Origin: a bacterium
GTDB taxonomy: Bacteria; Bacteroidota; Bacteroidia; NS11-12g; UBA9320
Direction: 5' to 3'
NCBI GenBank assembly: GCA_018223105.1
Contig: JAAEYY010000030.1
Span: 1-38,318, forward strand
DNA: 38,318 bases
Shown: positions 27,215 to 38,318 of the stretch, piece after piece
How the letters are laid out: each line of letters starts with the position of its first letter
How positions within the stretch are numbered: position 1 is the stretch's first letter
Notes under the pieces: model-generated
Database searches by the model: none
Told to the model about the DNA's origin: nothing
The model's input: the letters and a program-made list of their open reading frames with translations, nothing else
Program-made: the position numbers and the translations under genes

Positions 27215-30200
27215 TTAAAGTTTTATCACTTTTCGATTTATACTTAAGGCTTCACCGTTTATTACCACGGTGTAAACACCTGCAGTTAAACCGTTAAAAT
27301 CTAAGTTATCAGATCCCACTACTTGTTGTAGTATCACTCTTTCTCCAAGAGCATTATAAACTTCAACAGTAACTTCTTGATTGTAATTTCCAAGGTCGAT
27401 GGTCAATTCCTGATTCACCGGATTAGGATAAACTCCACCTTGATATGCTTCTAAGCTAGGCTGTATACTCAAGGTTGCCGGTGCTGTTGGACAATCTGTA
27501 GTATTATCAATTTGTCCTCTGATTGCACCATTTGGATAATCATCGGTATGCACATTGATATATGCATTTCCTTCTTTAATTACACGAATTACTCCTGTAT
27601 CAAATGCAGATGAATCGTCGTAAGCAAAGTAATTGCTTCCTGAAAGGTTAAGTGCAAATAGTACATTTCCGTTGGTACCTGCAGCTCCTTCGTGGATATG
27701 AGCAGCGTTCACTTCTTCACCAAAATTTGTACTTACCATCATAGTGTGCATGAAAGAACGATCTTTATCAATACTCAAGATCGCTGAGCCATATCCCGTA
27801 GAATTGCTCATTGGCATCTCTTGATTTCCGCAAAGATCAAAGGCATAACCGTCTCTGGCCATTCTGTATACCTGACCTCTAATCTCACCTGAAAGGAAAG
27901 CTAAACTGTGTGTATTTACGTAAATATCGCCTGAATTTAATGAGCTAATGAGTGAAGTAGAAATGTCTGCTTCCAGAATAACTCCGGCAGTAACATTGTC
28001 CATGATACCTGCTGAAAGATTCACAGCAACACCTCCGGCAACTCCTAGTTCACCATTGTGAAGGTGAATTGCAGTAATAACATCACTCAAACCTGAAGTT
28101 TGAACCCAATATTGCATGCTGTCCATGGTGAAATTCAATTCAAAAAGAGCGAGTCCCATAGCAGGGCTGCTGCTGTAAGGAACTGCCTGTGCTCCATTCA
28201 TCCAAGACTCATATACATAACCATCAGCCATGTTTAGTTGTCCTCTAATTTCACCGTCTGCATTAGCAGAAGTATGAACATTCAAGTAGATTTCACCATT
28301 CATCAATTCAGTCATGAAAGATGATGGATCTACAGAACCCATAATCGTGTTTCCATCTACCATAGTGGTAAGGTTTGAAACTACAGAACCATTCATTCCT
28401 TCTGCCGCTGCATGAAGGTGTGCTCCGGTTACCGGACCACTTAATTCATCAAATACCACCTTAAAACGAAGTTCTGTATTGTTATTTGTTAAGTAGAAAT
28501 GTGCTAGTCCTGAAGCATCTGTAGTAACTGCAGGTACTTCATTCCCACCATTTAGGTCTACTAAGAATGAAGTTTCAGTTTCAAGCATCAATTGAGCTCT
28601 GATTTCGCCGTTTGGAAAGTCTTCTGAGTGAATGTTAATGTAGTACATTCCTTGAGCTAACTTGTCCATCTCAAGCTCGGTAAGTTCTGCATTTACTTGA
28701 TTACTGTTTAAGTATTGCATTAAATCTACAACTACAGAACCATTCGTTCCGGCTGCCCCTTCGTGAATATGAATTCCGGTAAGATCTGAACTTAAATTAT
28801 CAAAAGTTAAGTTTAAATTCACTTTACTGAAGTCTGAAGCTACAATTAATCCTGCAACACCTGTTGCATTTGTATTTACCGAAGGTACTTCGTTCGAGCC
28901 GCTTAATCTAGCGGTGTAGAGTAGTCCTCCTTCAAACATTGGATCCATAGGAAGCATGCCATTGTTTATATCTTCAAACTCGGCAATTGCGAGTCCTCGG
29001 TCTGCCTGACCTCTGATTTCTCCATTTGCATAAGCATCTGTGTGGATGTTAATGTAAATTGCTTCATTTCTGAAAAGCACTGAACTGGCTGTGGTAAAAG
29101 CAGTTGAACTACTTCCGGTCCAATAACCAAAGGCAGCATCGTAATTATTCATCATCTCAAAAGAATTGCTAAGATTAAAAACAACATTTCCGTTCATTCC
29201 GGCAACGGCATTATGAAAATGAGCTCCGGTAATCGGTCCTGAAAGTTGATCTACCACAATCATATAATGTGCATTGCTTTGATCTCTATCTATAGATACA
29301 ATTCCAACACCATATCCATTAGTAATGGTGGATGGAACTTCTTGTAAGCCTGTAAGGTTAAAAGTATAGCCTTCTCTTGCAGTTCTGTAAATCTGACCTC
29401 TGGTTTCTCCATTTGGGTTCAAAGTGGTATGTACGTTAATGTAGATAGCACCGCCCAACATAGCTTCAACTAAATCATGGGTAATATCAGAACCAGTAGC
29501 CATTCCTTCAATCCAATTACCATTGATTCCGGATGAAAGATCAAGTACAACATTTCCGCTCATTCCAATAACTGCTTCGTGTAAATGCGCTCCGGTAATT
29601 GAACCGCTAAGTTCAGTAGCTAAGAATGAATACCATAATGTATCCATTGTAGGGTTAAGAGCAATATGACCTGTACCAATAGCATCGCTGCCAATTACGG
29701 TGGTGGTCTCCTGATCTGTAGTTAGTCTAGAATCAAATGCGATTCCGGCAGTCTTATACACTTGACCCCGAATTTCTCCATTTGGATTGTCAGATGTATG
29801 AACGTTGATATAAATATTTCCGCTCATTATATCTGCCAATAAAGTTGGATAAGATGAAATAGAAATAGAACCATTCAATGTGGTTCCATCAATTCCTGAA
29901 CTTAAATCTAAGGCTACTGTTCCGGCTTGTCCTAGCATTCCATTGTGAAAATGGGCAGCAGTAATATCACCGCTCAAACCATCCGTAACTACATAATAGT
30001 TTAGGGTTTGTTTATCTATGCTGACGTCAAAAATGGCAGCACCACTGGCATTATTTGTAACAGGGTGATTTTGTTGCATCGTATCAAGGCTAGAGTAAAA
30101 AGAATAATCGGTCTCTAATTTCAACTGACCTCTAATTTCTCCGCCGGGGTTGTCGTCCGTATGCACGTTTACATAAAATTGCTCGCTTAATAAACCAGCA

Positions 30201-30559
30201 ATAAAGTCCTCATCCACATCTGAAGACGGGATTGAACCAATAATTTGAGTCCCTCTAACATTGTTACTGAGGTTAATTAATACTCCTCCGTTAGTTCCGG
30301 CCATTCCATCGTGAATATGAATTCCGGTAATAGGTCCTGATAAATTATTCACCACAATATTGTAGTAAACACTATCAAAATGCTCAGAGATGGTGAAACT
30401 TGCGAGTCCAACGGCATCCGTTGTAACTGCAGGAACCTCCTGATCTCCTGTTAATTTGGCTGTCACCAGTAGTTCTCCACCCAGATGACCGGCCATTGAA
30501 CTTAATGAAAATACTCCCGTCAGGAGCATCGATAAGGCTAGTCTGTAAATTGTTTTCAT
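27215..30559 (-). CDS. T9SS-exported protein with eight CHRD domains
   Basis: 1114 residues. Signal peptide about 1-23 (SLSSMAGHLGG). Eight CHRD (chordin-type) domains fill residues about 28-1032, each ending in a clear INVHTxxxPxGEIRGQ-type motif with a GxHxHxxxxGxxG loop. They fall into two sets of four: domain 1 matches 5, 2 matches 6, 3 matches 7 and 4 matches 8 (for instance GYTFNLTGLQEVP in 4 and GYAFDLCGNQEMP in 8). The rest is a T9SS type A sorting domain (VYPNPVNQELTIDLG, GLTAGVYTVVINGE). CHRD domains in bacteria are surface or secreted, of unknown reaction; adhesion is plausible. The gene is monocistronic. Confidence 0.92.
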   Translation of the reverse strand: MKTIYRLALSMLLTGVFSLSSMAGHLGGELLVTAKLTGDQEVPAVTTDAVGLASFTISEHFDSVYYNIVVNNLSGPITGIHIHDGMAGTNGGVLINLSNNVRGTQIIGSIPSSDVDEDFIAGLLSEQFYVNVHTDDNPGGEIRGQLKLETDYSFYSSLDTMQQNHPVTNNASGAAIFDVSIDKQTLNYYVVTDGLSGDITAAHFHNGMLGQAGTVALDLSSGIDGTTLNGSISISSYPTLLADIMSGNIYINVHTSDNPNGEIRGQVYKTAGIAFDSRLTTDQETTTVIGSDAIGTGHIALNPTMDTLWYSFLATELSGSITGAHLHEAVIGMSGNVVLDLSSGINGNWIEGMATGSDITHDLVEAMLGGAIYINVHTTLNPNGETRGQIYRTAREGYTFNLTGLQEVPSTITNGYGVGIVSIDRDQSNAHYMIVVDQLSGPITGAHFHNAVAGMNGNVVFNLSNSFEMMNNYDAAFGYWTGSSSTAFTTASSVLFRNEAIYINIHTDAYANGEIRGQADRGLAIAEFEDINNGMLPMDPMFEGGLLYTARLSGSNEVPSVNTNATGVAGLIVASDFSKVNLNLTFDNLSSDLTGIHIHEGAAGTNGSVVVDLMQYLNSNQVNAELTELEMDKLAQGMYYINIHSEDFPNGEIRAQLMLETETSFLVDLNGGNEVPAVTTDASGLAHFYLTNNNTELRFKVVFDELSGPVTGAHLHAAAEGMNGSVVSNLTTMVDGNTIMGSVDPSSFMTELMNGEIYLNVHTSANADGEIRGQLNMADGYVYESWMNGAQAVPYSSSPAMGLALFELNFTMDSMQYWVQTSGLSDVITAIHLHNGELGVAGGVAVNLSAGIMDNVTAGVILEADISTSLISSLNSGDIYVNTHSLAFLSGEIRGQVYRMARDGYAFDLCGNQEMPMSNSTGYGSAILSIDKDRSFMHTMMVSTNFGEEVNAAHIHEGAAGTNGNVLFALNLSGSNYFAYDDSSAFDTGVIRVIKEGNAYINVHTDDYPNGAIRGQIDNTTDCPTAPATLSIQPSLEAYQGGVYPNPVNQELTIDLGNYNQEVTVEVYNALGERVILQQVVGSDNLDFNGLTAGVYTVVINGEALSINRKVIKL

Positions 30560-33935: not shown

Positions 33936-34772
33936 TTATTGTATATTGATCAGCTTCACTGACCGTAAATTCCCAGAATGAATAGAAACTTGATATAATC
34001 CGCTATTCAAATCAGAAAGGTCTAATCTTTTTTTATTGTTCGCTTCTATTAGGACTCTACCTTGCATATCTCGAAGAATTACAATGAAATTATTGACATC
34101 ACATTCAATAAATAATTGCTCAGTGACCGGATTTGGGTATACCTTGAAGTCAATAGTTTCTTCCTCAGTAATTCCTAGAGTACAATCCAGACTAATTCTT
34201 CCTTCGGGAGACAAATGGTCTTCCACTACTTCATATTCCATTGCAATTGAATCCACGCAGGCAAAGGTTATATCCGTATAAAATAACGAAAAGTACTTGG
34301 CCATAGATCCGTTTTTCAGATTGAGGTATTTAAGATGTGTTAGTCCTTCAAGATAAATACTTTCCAGCGCAGGTAAATCTGATAAATCTACCTTATCCAT
34401 ATCCGAAATATCTGTTACTCGAATATAGCTCAGGCTATCTAAAGCAAGATTTGAAACATCTTCAAGCTTAAAACCCCCTCCACCTATTTTTAGACTGTCT
34501 AGGTTTGAAAACTGATGTAATTCATAGACCTCTGAAATCTTGTAAGTTTCACTTGGATAGATAACTAAACTCGTTACATTCAGCGCTTCCTCCAGTTGTA
34601 TTTTTCCGTCATTATTCACATCAATCGCAGAATCTCCGAAGCCGTTACCGGTTATATCTACGGCTTTTTCATTAAGCAAGTATTGTTCTAATGCTTGATT
34701 TGAAAAGTTGAGGATTTGGGCCTCGCAAAAGTGATATAAAAAAAGTGCTATTAAAGTAAAGTATGTTTTCAT
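33936..34772 (-). CDS. T9SS-exported leucine-rich-repeat-like protein
   Basis: 278 residues. Signal peptide 1-18 (LYHFCEAQ). A short N-terminal block (FSNQALEQYLLNEKAVDI) precedes an EF-hand-like loop (DVNNDGKIQLEEA, about 50-62) likely to bind calcium. Irregular leucine-rich repeats follow (HQFSNLDSLKIGG, LSDLPALESIYLEGLTHLKY) and a T9SS type A sorting domain starts near residue 210 (VYPNPVTEQLFIECD, SGLYQVSIHSG). The order of dockerin/EF-hand-like start, LRR and T9SS tail is common in Flavobacteriia surface proteins. No neighbour suggests a pathway. Confidence 0.85.
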   Translation of the reverse strand: MKTYFTLIALFLYHFCEAQILNFSNQALEQYLLNEKAVDITGNGFGDSAIDVNNDGKIQLEEALNVTSLVIYPSETYKISEVYELHQFSNLDSLKIGGGGFKLEDVSNLALDSLSYIRVTDISDMDKVDLSDLPALESIYLEGLTHLKYLNLKNGSMAKYFSLFYTDITFACVDSIAMEYEVVEDHLSPEGRISLDCTLGITEEETIDFKVYPNPVTEQLFIECDVNNFIVILRDMQGRVLIEANNKKRLDLSDLNSGLYQVSIHSGNLRSVKLINIQ

Positions 34773-34935: not shown

Positions 34936-36024
34936 TTAAAATGGAGACGCGTATTCCGGGTTTGAAAGCAATTCATCATCTGTAAGCGTCTTCAGAAATG
35001 CTACAATATCCTTTATATCATCATCGTCTAACATTAAGCCGGTATCCATGGTCATGGCCAAGGCCGGATCAAGAGTTTCTGAATCTACCAAACCATCGTT
35101 ATAATGTTGAATAACTTCTTCCAAGGTCTGAAATCTACCATCGTGCATATAAGGAGGAGTCACCTCAATATTGCGAAGAGAAGTAACCTTAAATTTTGCT
35201 CGGTCTTTGGCATCTTGGGTCACATTTTCTCTTCCTTTATCAGCAACCACATTTCCATCAAGGCCATTATTCATGTATTCATTATTTGAGAAATTATCAC
35301 CTGAATGGCAGTGCGCACAATCGGCACCTGATTCATCCGGAAAGAACGGATTATACTCCTGAAAAAATAATTGCCGACCTCTTTCCTCACTTTCTGTAAG
35401 AGTGTCGGTCCCTGCTAGGTATCGATCGTATTTGGAACCGTGTGAAACAATAGAGTTCATAAACTGCTCCATCGCTTTTGATATTCTTTCAGTAGTAATT
35501 TCATCGGTACCAAAGGCACGTATAAACTGATCTCTATACGATTGATCATCACTTAGCTTGGCAATAACACTTTCCAATGTTTCATCCATTTCCAATTCAT
35601 CCTGAATCGGCATTAAAGATTGATCGCGCAATAGATGAGCACGTCCATCCCAAAAGAATTCATTGGAATTCCATGCCATATTAAAAACACTCATGGCTTG
35701 TCTTTTTCCTTCTAATCCACGAACTCCAATGGAAAATTTAGCAGTATCTGTAAAAGCGTGTTCTTGTCTATGACAACTGGCACAAGACATGCTGTTATCA
35801 CTACTCAATTTTGTCTCATAAAACAACATCTTTCCAAGTTTTACCCCTTGAACAGTAAGGGGATTATCCTCGGCGATATCCGGTGTCGGGAAGACCCCAA
35901 TATTTAAACTATATGGCGTATCGTCGTACACCACTTCTACGGGTGACTCCTGATCTTTACACCCTACCACAAATAGGGCTATGATCAGAAATATACTTCC
36001 AAATGCAATTATTTTCTTATTCAT
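34936..36024 (-). CDS. Di-heme cytochrome c peroxidase, MauG/CcpA type (copy 2)
   Basis: 362 residues. Lipobox VVGC (Cys22). Two haem-binding sites: CASCH (81-85) and CAHCH (236-240). The segment NEFFWDGRAHLLRDQSLMPI (121-140) contains the Trp between the haems, and TPPYMHDGRFQTLEEVIQHY (near 290-310) supplies the distal region of the second haem. The family reduces peroxide with two c-haems or, as in MauG and MbnH, oxidises a protein substrate. It lies 5 bases after a related peroxidase gene. Being a lipoprotein, it probably faces the periplasm. Confidence 0.92.
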   Translation of the reverse strand: MNKKIIAFGSIFLIIALFVVGCKDQESPVEVVYDDTPYSLNIGVFPTPDIAEDNPLTVQGVKLGKMLFYETKLSSDNSMSCASCHRQEHAFTDTAKFSIGVRGLEGKRQAMSVFNMAWNSNEFFWDGRAHLLRDQSLMPIQDELEMDETLESVIAKLSDDQSYRDQFIRAFGTDEITTERISKAMEQFMNSIVSHGSKYDRYLAGTDTLTESEERGRQLFFQEYNPFFPDESGADCAHCHSGDNFSNNEYMNNGLDGNVVADKGRENVTQDAKDRAKFKVTSLRNIEVTPPYMHDGRFQTLEEVIQHYNDGLVDSETLDPALAMTMDTGLMLDDDDIKDIVAFLKTLTDDELLSNPEYASPF

Positions 36025-36029
36025 ATCAA

Positions 36030-37034
36030 TTACTTCTTATTCATAAAATCTTCATCTGTTAATGTCTTAAGAAAAGCCACTAGTGCCTTTTTTTCTTGTT
36101 CCGTAAGATTCAAAGGTTTGATTAAGCTACTTTTTGACGGATGTTCTTCACCTCCTTCATTGTAATGATTAATTACTTCTTCAAGATGGCTAATACTTCC
36201 ATCATGCATATATGGTCCGGTTACTGCGACATTCCTTAAACTTGGCACTTTAAATCTTGCTCTATCTGTTGCATTCCCGGTAAAGCGTGCTCTACCGCTA
36301 TCCGCGTAGACATTGTACAAACCATTATTCTCAAAAAGGTTATTGGTGAAATTAAAACCTCCATGACAAGAAGAACAATTCGTTTTCTCACTATAAAATA
36401 GTCGAAGTCCTTCCTCCTCTTGATCAGTATATACAGAGTAGTTTCGCTCATAAACATACCGGTCAAATCGACTGGAGTTTGTAACTAAACTGCGTTCAAA
36501 ATTTGCGATTGCCCTCACTAAAACAAAAGCATCAAACTCTCGATTATAAGCCGCCTTGCTTAAAGCATCATATAGACTATCTGTGCTAAGTTGCTTCACA
36601 ATATTCACAATATTGTGATTGAACTCATTGTGCTCTTGGATAGGTACCAAAATTTGCATTTCCAAGCTCGGCACTCCGCCTTCTCGAGTGAAATAGGGCA
36701 AGTACCCCACATTTCCTAAGCTAGGGCTATTTCTAGTTCCCAGAGCATCGTTTACCCCTTTACTTACGGTCAATCCGTCGGAAAATGCCAATTCACTTTT
36801 ATGGCAGCTGCCACAACTTATTGAATTGTCAATAGATAAGCGAGTATCAAAAAACAAGAGTTTACCTAGTTCTTCACTCATTGCCGACTTTGGATTATCC
36901 TCAGGATAAACCATTTCCGGGAATTCCCCAATATCAGGAATAAAATGATCTAAGACTTTCCTAGGTCCGGGATCTTTAACACACGAACCTAATAAAGCTA
37001 AAATTGCATACGCTATGAGAGCAATGCGCTTCAA
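36030..37034 (-). CDS. Di-heme cytochrome c peroxidase, MauG/MbnH type (copy 1)
   Basis: 334 residues. Lipobox LLGSC (Cys18). Haem sites CGSCH (74-78) and CSSCH (220-224). In place of the WDGR segment of its neighbour it has YFTREGGVPSLEMQ and then VPIQEHNEF (114-138), so the tryptophan between the haems is missing, and TGPYMHDGSISHLEEVINHY near 270-290. It starts one base after the MbnP gene ends. In methanotrophs MbnH, a di-heme enzyme of this family, converts a Trp of MbnP into kynurenine to make a copper site; the gene order here supports the same job. Which of the two copies is the true MbnH is uncertain. Confidence 0.9.
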   Translation of the reverse strand: MKRIALIAYAILALLGSCVKDPGPRKVLDHFIPDIGEFPEMVYPEDNPKSAMSEELGKLLFFDTRLSIDNSISCGSCHKSELAFSDGLTVSKGVNDALGTRNSPSLGNVGYLPYFTREGGVPSLEMQILVPIQEHNEFNHNIVNIVKQLSTDSLYDALSKAAYNREFDAFVLVRAIANFERSLVTNSSRFDRYVYERNYSVYTDQEEEGLRLFYSEKTNCSSCHGGFNFTNNLFENNGLYNVYADSGRARFTGNATDRARFKVPSLRNVAVTGPYMHDGSISHLEEVINHYNEGGEEHPSKSSLIKPLNLTEQEKKALVAFLKTLTDEDFMNKK

Positions 37035-37035
37035 A

Positions 37036-38013
37036 TTATTCTATAACGATTAGCTTAGTTCTTGAAATTACAGCTCCTCTATGTATCAATTCAATAAAGT
37101 ATAATCCTGTTTGATCAATTTCAATACTAGTATTTGGTGCTACTGCTGCTAAGGTCTCTGAGCTGATCAATTCACCATTAGATGCATAAATATTATATGA
37201 ATCAAACACGATAGCAGAACTTTTTGAACCAATTAAGAATTTGCCATCATGTGATGGATTTGGATATGCTGATACGTTTGAAAGTTTTTCAGTTCTTAAG
37301 CTTGCCAAATTATTACCGGCACCATCTAAAGAAGTGAAAACATAGTCGCGAAAATTTTTAAGTAAATCCGCAGCTTCGTCATAGTCACCATGAGTCACTA
37401 CACTAGCGCTTACATCAATGCCTTCAATCGCTCTTGCATAATCAGCATTTAATTCGATAATTAAATCCCCATCAAGGTCTTGAGCATCGGTAGGAATTCT
37501 AATTTGATGATAGTTTTTATTACCTAAAGCATGGATTTGAAATGTAGTGTTAAGTGCATCACCTGCTTTTCCTTCCATAGCAACAAAGCGGTAACCGGCT
37601 GCCCATCCCCAATGCATACTTGGAGATTTAGGCGCTAAAGGATGAGTACTTGGCCATTTTGTTGGGTCATCGTTATTTTCTGGCGTATTAACCCCCACGC
37701 TGAACTGAATGGCTTCAACCGTTGTAATATCAAAATTGCCTAAATCTACCTCAGTGTTCTGACTTGCATTCACCAATGCATAAACACCTGATGCATCTGT
37801 AACAGTGCCTCCATCATGCACAATGCTCACCTTTGAAATGTAGTATTGGAGTCGGGTTACATTGAATTTTATACCGATATTATTTTGAGATTCGGTATTA
37901 AAAGCAAATGAATTCTGCCCCAGAAGGTGATTCAGTTTAAGCTTTACGTTAGTTTGCGCTGATACTGCGATACTTAAGATCGAGAACAACAAAATAGTAA
38001 TTGATTTTTTCAT
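37036..38013 (-). CDS. mbnP: MbnP-family copper-binding protein with T9SS tail
   Basis: 325 residues. Signal peptide 1-19 (SILSIAVSAQ). The MbnP domain (about 21-225) shows the family signature NVTRLQYYISKVSIVHDGG (51-69), IQFSVGVNTPENNDDPTKWP, HPLAPKSPSMHWGWAAGYRF (124-143) and EGKAGDALNTTFQIHALGN. His134, Trp135 and Trp137 mark the region whose Trp is oxidised to kynurenine in the methanotroph homologue. Residues about 248-325 form a T9SS type A sorting domain (NVSAYPNPSHDGKFLIG), which the methanotroph protein lacks, so this version should be delivered to the cell surface. Next to two di-heme peroxidases and a metal-binding lipoprotein. Confidence 0.92.
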   Translation of the reverse strand: MKKSITILLFSILSIAVSAQTNVKLKLNHLLGQNSFAFNTESQNNIGIKFNVTRLQYYISKVSIVHDGGTVTDASGVYALVNASQNTEVDLGNFDITTVEAIQFSVGVNTPENNDDPTKWPSTHPLAPKSPSMHWGWAAGYRFVAMEGKAGDALNTTFQIHALGNKNYHQIRIPTDAQDLDGDLIIELNADYARAIEGIDVSASVVTHGDYDEAADLLKNFRDYVFTSLDGAGNNLASLRTEKLSNVSAYPNPSHDGKFLIGSKSSAIVFDSYNIYASNGELISSETLAAVAPNTSIEIDQTGLYFIELIHRGAVISRTKLIVIE

Positions 38014-38030
38014 GATTTTTATTGATGTTT

Positions 38031-38318
38031 TTATTCGTTTTTAAGTTCTAATGCCATACCGCATTTTGAGCAAGAGTCGCCTGCAACTCCTGTAATTTCA
38101 GGGTGCATTGGACATATATAGACTTCTTGATCTGATTTATAATTCGGATTTTCTTGGTAGTCCATTCCGCATACAGGGCATTGTCCGGGTGCATCACTAC
38201 CACTACCTTCACAGTGCATTGGACAGATATATTGGGACGTGTATTCCTTTCCGGTTTTATCGCCATCTTCCTCTTGTTTACTTGAAAAGGTACAAGATGC
38301 TAAACCCACTATTAGTAC
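38031..38318 (-). CDS. Heavy-metal-binding-domain lipoprotein, partial (N-terminus off the right edge)
   Basis: Frame open to the right edge: VLIVGLASC then TFSSKQEEDGD, the end of a lipoprotein signal peptide, so the true start lies beyond the window. Two copies of the heavy-metal-binding domain follow: YICPMHCEGSGSDAPGQCPV then CGMDYQ, and YICPMHPEITGVAGDSCSKC then GMALEL. Each has the CPMH and CxxCGM ligands typical of copper-handling CusB- and CopA-associated domains. The gene ends 17 bases before the MbnP start, so it is probably the first visible gene of the same operon and may hand copper to or sense it for MbnP. Confidence 0.88.
   Translation of the reverse strand, partial: VLIVGLASCTFSSKQEEDGDKTGKEYTSQYICPMHCEGSGSDAPGQCPVCGMDYQENPNYKSDQEVYICPMHPEITGVAGDSCSKCGMALELKNE

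Follow-up and report, generated by a model that had tools for sequence, protein, structure and literature searches.

The methanotroph Methylosinus trichosporium OB3b carries the nearest solved relatives of the proteins considered here, the copper protein MbnP (structure 7l6g) and the di-haem enzyme MbnH (6e1c), encoded next to one another; in work by Manesis and colleagues in 2021 the first tryptophan of the MbnP WxW motif was reportedly found to be converted to kynurenine. A surface location of kynurenine-copper proteins has precedents in CorA and MopE, whose di-haem partners are either periplasmic or on the surface (PMC3912023). Here we describe a minus-strand operon from an uncultured member of the Bacteroidota, found at the far end of a stretch of 38,318 nucleotides (contig JAAEYY010000030.1, assembly GCA_018223105.1) that we refer to as the window. 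Its four genes encode, in order, a lipoprotein with a double heavy-metal-binding domain (HMBD), an MbnP protein with a sorting tail of the type IX secretion system (T9SS) (P0003), and two di-haem lipoproteins (P0002 and P0001), with intergenic spacings of 17, 1 and 5 bases. A preliminary description of the locus had named these same components as parts of one operon, and family profiles and the lipobox cysteines bear it out. On balance we lean, with mild conviction, towards the view that the operon specifies a T9SS-exported kynurenine-copper MbnP that is matured by a tryptophan-bearing enzyme with an arginine-type partner.

An MbnP protein with a type A sorting tail

P0003 (37036-38013, minus strand) matches the Pfam MbnP family PF20243 at 102.8 bits (cut-off 27), and its residues 250-323 (37045-37266, minus strand) match the T9SS type A tail model TIGR04183 at 30.2 bits (cut-off 23); Pfam's own tail model falls short, at 24.6 against a cut-off of 27. 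Because sequence searches of the PDB gave little (phmmer returned no useful match for P0003, and a profile search just a weak one to 7l6g, with E 0.077), the protein was also searched by fold. Its AlphaFold2 model has a mean predicted local distance difference test score (pLDDT) of 90.2, and the only strong PDB match found by Foldseek is the solved MbnP 7l6g (E 8.5e-8, probability 1.00). The C-terminal part of the model matches the T9SS substrate tails 8gl6, 8gl8 and 8glk, with a template modelling score of about 0.75 on the tail and E of about 0.007, and resembles the tails of RemA and NucA. The genome also encodes PorU (1215.7 bits) and SprA (2418.3 bits), both above their cut-offs. The earlier proposal that MbnP is fused here to a T9SS tail is thus upheld by the tail model, the tail fold and the presence of these export genes; P0003 has the C-terminal sorting domain of type A substrates, and we predict that it is T9SS-exported cargo and a surface protein.

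The tryptophans singled out beforehand as W135 and W137 do carry those numbers in P0003, where they form the motif W135-G-W137 (37603-37611, minus strand) following M133-H134. The motif aligns with the WNW of 7l6g, so the tryptophan corresponding to the kynurenine site is present, and W135 is the candidate for modification. WxW together with a methionine two residues ahead is found in 27 of 27 tailed MbnPs, a set collected by Pfam profile and without use of the motif; among 39 untailed MbnPs gathered by Pfam profile the methionine position is occupied by Met in 24 and by Leu in 10, and WxW is missing in four. TIGR04183 is matched by all 24 of the aligned tailed members.

Where the preliminary description saw a one-off rebuilding of an MbnP/MbnH operon, we find instead a widespread and conserved operon that recurs across the phylum. 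Among relatives, 55 of 58 have MbnP, as do 97 of 395 genomes drawn from the phylum, and when genome_contigs was scanned for MHWGW[SAT][AS]G, 347 stretches proved to encode a relative bearing the WxW motif of tailed MbnPs. All 80 of the loci that were kept, which had been selected for the WxW-type motif, have the T9SS tail (80/80). Named strains in culture are among the carriers: Edaphocola flava, E. aurantiacus and Acidiluteibacter ferrifornacis. So many loci rule out a unique fusion or an assembly artefact. We found no description of a T9SS-tailed MbnP in the open-licence literature.

Phylogenetic comparison places the tailed MbnPs in one clade (56 rows, support 100/99), one member of which (L095) is without a detectable tail. 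The sister of this clade is a group of lipoprotein MbnPs (joint support 99/94), to which a second MbnP of the same genome, encoded on contig 24, belongs.

The two di-haem enzymes

P0002 (36030-37034, minus strand, with a TTG start) and P0001 (34936-36024, minus strand) each contain two CxxCH motifs and a lipobox cysteine, in LLGSC and VVGC respectively. The best family model for both is TIGR04039 (289 bits for P0002, 248 bits for P0001), at scores under the cut-off of 362.85 bits, which none of the matches in this genome passes and among which P0002 is the highest. Their best solved-structure match is MbnH 6e1c (1.1e-47 for P0002 and 1.3e-49 for P0001), which is also the nearest fold (E 4.8e-18) to the AlphaFold model of P0002 (pLDDT 75.8). 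The 477-residue di-haem chains 6nx0 and 6v59, which we take to be BthA, match P0002 weakly in sequence. The MauG positions His35, Trp93, Pro107, Glu113, His205 and Tyr294 map cleanly onto both enzymes by alignment. P0002 retains H35, P107, E113, H205 and Y294, so that its haem ligands and distal residues are kept despite an arginine, R117 (36684-36686, minus strand), in place of the inter-haem Trp93; this part of the alignment is uncertain by one residue, neither candidate residue being aromatic, and P0002 has no tryptophan anywhere in its length. P0001 retains the inter-haem tryptophan, as W125 (35650-35652, minus strand).

The two enzymes had previously been told apart by the sequence WDGR, and it is correct that P0001 has it, within FFWDGRA, and that P0002 does not. 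The methanotroph MbnH is itself without WDGR, its inter-haem tryptophan sitting in TWANPA, so the absence of this sequence alone cannot separate MbnH from other peroxidases, and it does not mark P0002 as a peroxidase of another kind. By alignment, the true difference between the enzymes is the change of the inter-haem tryptophan to arginine in P0002. Both have an axial tyrosine on the second haem where CcpA has a methionine, which rules out a canonical CcpA identity and, as a feature of sequence, supports their assignment to the MbnH/MauG side. The suggested phylogeny against MbnH, MauG and CcpA agrees as far as it goes: the enzymes stand apart from the CcpA references (group at 100), in a tree that does not resolve their join to MbnH and MauG or a sister placement to the methanotroph MbnH.

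Enzymes related to P0002, which we refer to as the R-clade, form a group of 46 rows with a Shimodaira-Hasegawa-like approximate likelihood ratio support of 99, and every row comes from a locus with a tailed-clade MbnP. Those related to P0001, the W-type enzymes of tailed loci, form a group of 39 rows (97) inside a 51-row group (96) together with the enzymes of lipoprotein MbnPs, so that their tree mirrors that of MbnP, the tailed-locus group being joined to the lipoprotein-locus enzymes. Arginine at the position of R117 is invariant in 22 R-clade sequences that were chosen for having it, and is present in 91% of the whole clade, with Phe, Leu or Trp in a few members. A decaying pseudogene is ruled out by the 64% mean column identity and the invariance of all haem ligands in the 22 sequences. 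On the evidence of these clades, P0002 is a second MbnH-like enzyme that is specific, among the loci examined here, to tailed MbnPs.

A phylum-wide search with an R-clade profile gave 11 matches above 380 bits, and those whose surroundings were read adjoin a tailed-clade MbnP except for one, in genome G102. At this locus (L271, 2031-4875), which was left out of the enzyme tree, a lipoprotein MbnP is followed by an enzyme with an inter-haem alanine and an axial phenylalanine and then by a tryptophan enzyme; a two-enzyme layout therefore exists outside the tailed clade and without a T9SS tail. Nor is loss of the inter-haem tryptophan exclusive to tailed loci, as forms with Ala, Leu, Phe or Tyr occur elsewhere (L110, L093, L259, L265, L267 and L271).

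A non-tryptophan and a tryptophan enzyme occur together at 59 of the 80 kept loci, the non-Trp enzyme first at 50 and a Trp enzyme followed by an Arg enzyme at nine; there is only a Trp enzyme at 11, only an Arg enzyme at six, and neither could be called at four, some of these single-enzyme or uncalled loci being contig ends or having the other enzyme upstream. We searched the 11 draft genomes in which 12 of the loci with a single enzyme lie, and found both clades in eight of them; one is without an R-clade enzyme, and two, though without a tailed-type W enzyme, contain other di-haem enzymes that score with the W model. In a search for TIGR04039 that covered 11 genomes, each also had a Trp-bearing, Tyr-ligated enzyme, and together these searches rule out that the R-clade occurs only where a genome has no Trp enzyme.

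Related di-haem proteins are also found in other settings. In the same genome, contig C5 (L009, 35-2205) has a tandem of similar Trp-bearing di-haem lipoproteins apart from any MbnP match, and contig C7 (L008, 1423-3333) encodes a 636-residue protein with a di-haem peroxidase domain behind an N-terminal extension. We note too that public gene tables label an MbnH-like di-haem protein at two loci (L247, 2462-3622; L248, 2411-3562) as 'methanobactin export MATE transporter MbnM', and that in L247 the name mbnM goes to a gene described as 'hypothetical protein'; the names at both loci look wrong.

Proposed roles of the enzymes and possible place of the reaction

In the reading towards which we lean, P0003 would be exported by Sec and then fold, and W135 would be turned to kynurenine through peroxide-driven oxidation. 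P0001 would be the inherited MbnH of the tailed-MbnP lineage and most likely the enzyme that oxidises the tryptophan, and P0002 most likely its assistant, by dealing with peroxide, by supplying electrons or by carrying out a second oxidation. The modified P0003 would leave via the T9SS by its type A tail, either stay on the surface or be shed, and bind copper there. The W-type enzyme is favoured as the oxidiser because it is co-inherited with MbnP, because it has a tryptophan relay, and because of a weak mirror-tree result, in which MbnP distances follow the W-type more than the R-type enzymes (partial r 0.51 and 0.05 respectively).

Several observations weigh against this reading. The mirror-tree outcome may just reflect the W-type being the least noisy clock, and it is an R-clade enzyme that directly adjoins the tailed MbnP at about 25 of 27 loci, a W-type enzyme being present at 17. 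P0003 contains no cysteine and matches TIGR04052, the WxW MbnP model, only partly, at 36.5 bits against a cut-off of 140; the lipoprotein MbnP of the same genome is also under this cut-off (39.9 bits). The upstream copper genes, moreover, are kept in near relatives only, the HMBD gene being found at 9 of 71 loci, which rules out that it is a constant component beyond them.

As to where the reaction occurs, it is possible, if on the improbable side, that both enzymes are surface lipoproteins and work on MbnP extracellularly, once the T9SS has exported it; this alternative concerns location and is compatible with the other readings. W-type enzymes may face outside because the residues after the lipid cysteine (acidic at +4 in 75%, Lys at +2/+3) resemble in many of them the K-(D/E)2 signal of Bacteroidota surface lipoproteins (PMC5080379), and in M. 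capsulatus SACCP is found together with MopE at the cell surface (PMC3912023). R-clade enzymes have a weaker form of the signal, however, and the two window enzymes fit it only in part (CKDQES and CVKDPG); the test is a loose one, scoring 13 of 23 canonical MbnP lipoproteins and also 7 of 37 other lipobox open reading frames. Haem attachment is periplasmic, and the periplasm is the main location of CorB and of its M. alcaliphilum counterpart (PMC3912023). The enzymes may face outside, and periplasmic modification before export, the order proposed in the preliminary description, is only one option.

A rather doubtful alternative reverses the roles, with the R-clade enzyme as the dedicated kynurenine former of tailed MbnPs, and the W-type enzyme removing peroxide or serving another substrate. 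It is kept in contention by the tight adjacency just described, which sometimes occurs without a W-type enzyme (L077, L103, L107), and by the precedent of BthA, which has Ser for Trp and yet forms bis-Fe(IV) (PMC6405878). At one locus (L105, 4875-8671) a lipoprotein MbnP, a W-type enzyme, a tailed MbnP and an R-clade enzyme lie in series, the W-type enzyme paired with the lipoprotein MbnP and the R-clade enzyme with the tailed MbnP, and TIGR04039 scores P0002 higher than P0001. Hole transfer in P0002, however, would need residues other than tryptophan, the trees have the W-type and not the R-clade co-inherited with the MbnP lineage, and all 11 genomes searched for TIGR04039 have a Trp-bearing, Tyr-ligated enzyme as well. 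More speculatively, and in our view unlikely, the Arg-type and Trp-type enzymes could be an obligate asymmetric pair that together make kynurenine in a T9SS cargo, whether before or after its export; the haems of one subunit would be electronically uncoupled, and this subunit would provide oxidising power to the other or ration it. Very improbable is that the di-haem proteins simply remove peroxide, as ordinary peroxidases, next to an unmodified MbnP, and that the gene order stems from nothing but a common stress regulation: they have a peroxidase fold, the modification chemistry is our interpretation, and BthA, for all its likeness to MauG, is a good peroxidase (PMC6405878), but almost all members have an axial Tyr where CcpA has Met, pairing with MbnP is strict across the phylum, and WxW is retained in every tailed MbnP of the set collected without it.

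If W135 is a kynurenine, then the Bacteroidota have a large repertoire of kynurenine-copper proteins displayed at the surface, which ties the chemistry of MbnP to T9SS cargo. MauG and BthA raise the question of whether a di-haem enzyme needs the inter-haem tryptophan in order to modify proteins, and the Arg-for-Trp clade provides a natural test of it; the named cultured carriers make the locus open to testing.

Genomic setting and comparison with known systems

The surroundings of the operon are copper-related. The HMBD gene (38031-38318, minus strand; PF19335 at 71.4 bits in two stretches) has lost its start, its first codons lying in a 10-N assembly gap immediately past the window, and just beyond the gap on contig C30, also on the minus strand, is a gene for a HYC_CC_PP protein. 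At another locus (L074, 1315-3734), judged from the N-termini, a CopA-type ATPase-like sequence (MTCASC) and a small HMA chaperone-like gene follow directly behind the two enzymes. Elsewhere in the window, 163 bases downstream of the operon, is a gene for a T9SS-tailed protein with weak leucine-rich repeat and EF-hand matches (33936-34772, minus strand), and a 1114-residue protein (27215-30559, minus strand) has eight CHRD stretches and a T9SS type A tail.

The operon resembles methanotroph MbnP/MbnH in its WxW MbnP domain, in the adjacent di-haem enzyme with an axial tyrosine, and in its nearest solved structures. It differs in having a T9SS tail, an MbnP without cysteine and two enzymes rather than one, one of them without the inter-haem tryptophan, and it contains no methanobactin genes. 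Also close is the contig 24 pair of the same genome, a lipoprotein MbnP and a W-type MbnH that fall in sister clades for both proteins; here MbnP is lipid-anchored (NSLHWSW, with no tail), there is a single enzyme, and a TonB receptor and an HMA-MauE fusion lie upstream, a copper-related setting of metallochaperone-type and TonB receptor genes.

CorA/CorB and MopE/SACCP of methanotrophs are alike in joining a surface kynurenine copper protein to a co-transcribed di-haem peroxidase (PMC3912023), but they are not markedly like MbnP in sequence (PMC3621798), do not involve a T9SS, and have one enzyme. BthA of Burkholderia is, as P0002, a Tyr-ligated di-haem enzyme without an inter-haem tryptophan, and its gene lies beside that of a predicted surface protein (PMC6405878); it differs in having Ser instead of Arg, and in that its partner is a phosphatase. 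MauG has the axial tyrosine and the distal glutamate and proline in common with the window enzymes, and differs in making tryptophan tryptophylquinone, in methylamine dehydrogenase, and in having Trp93 where P0002 has an arginine.

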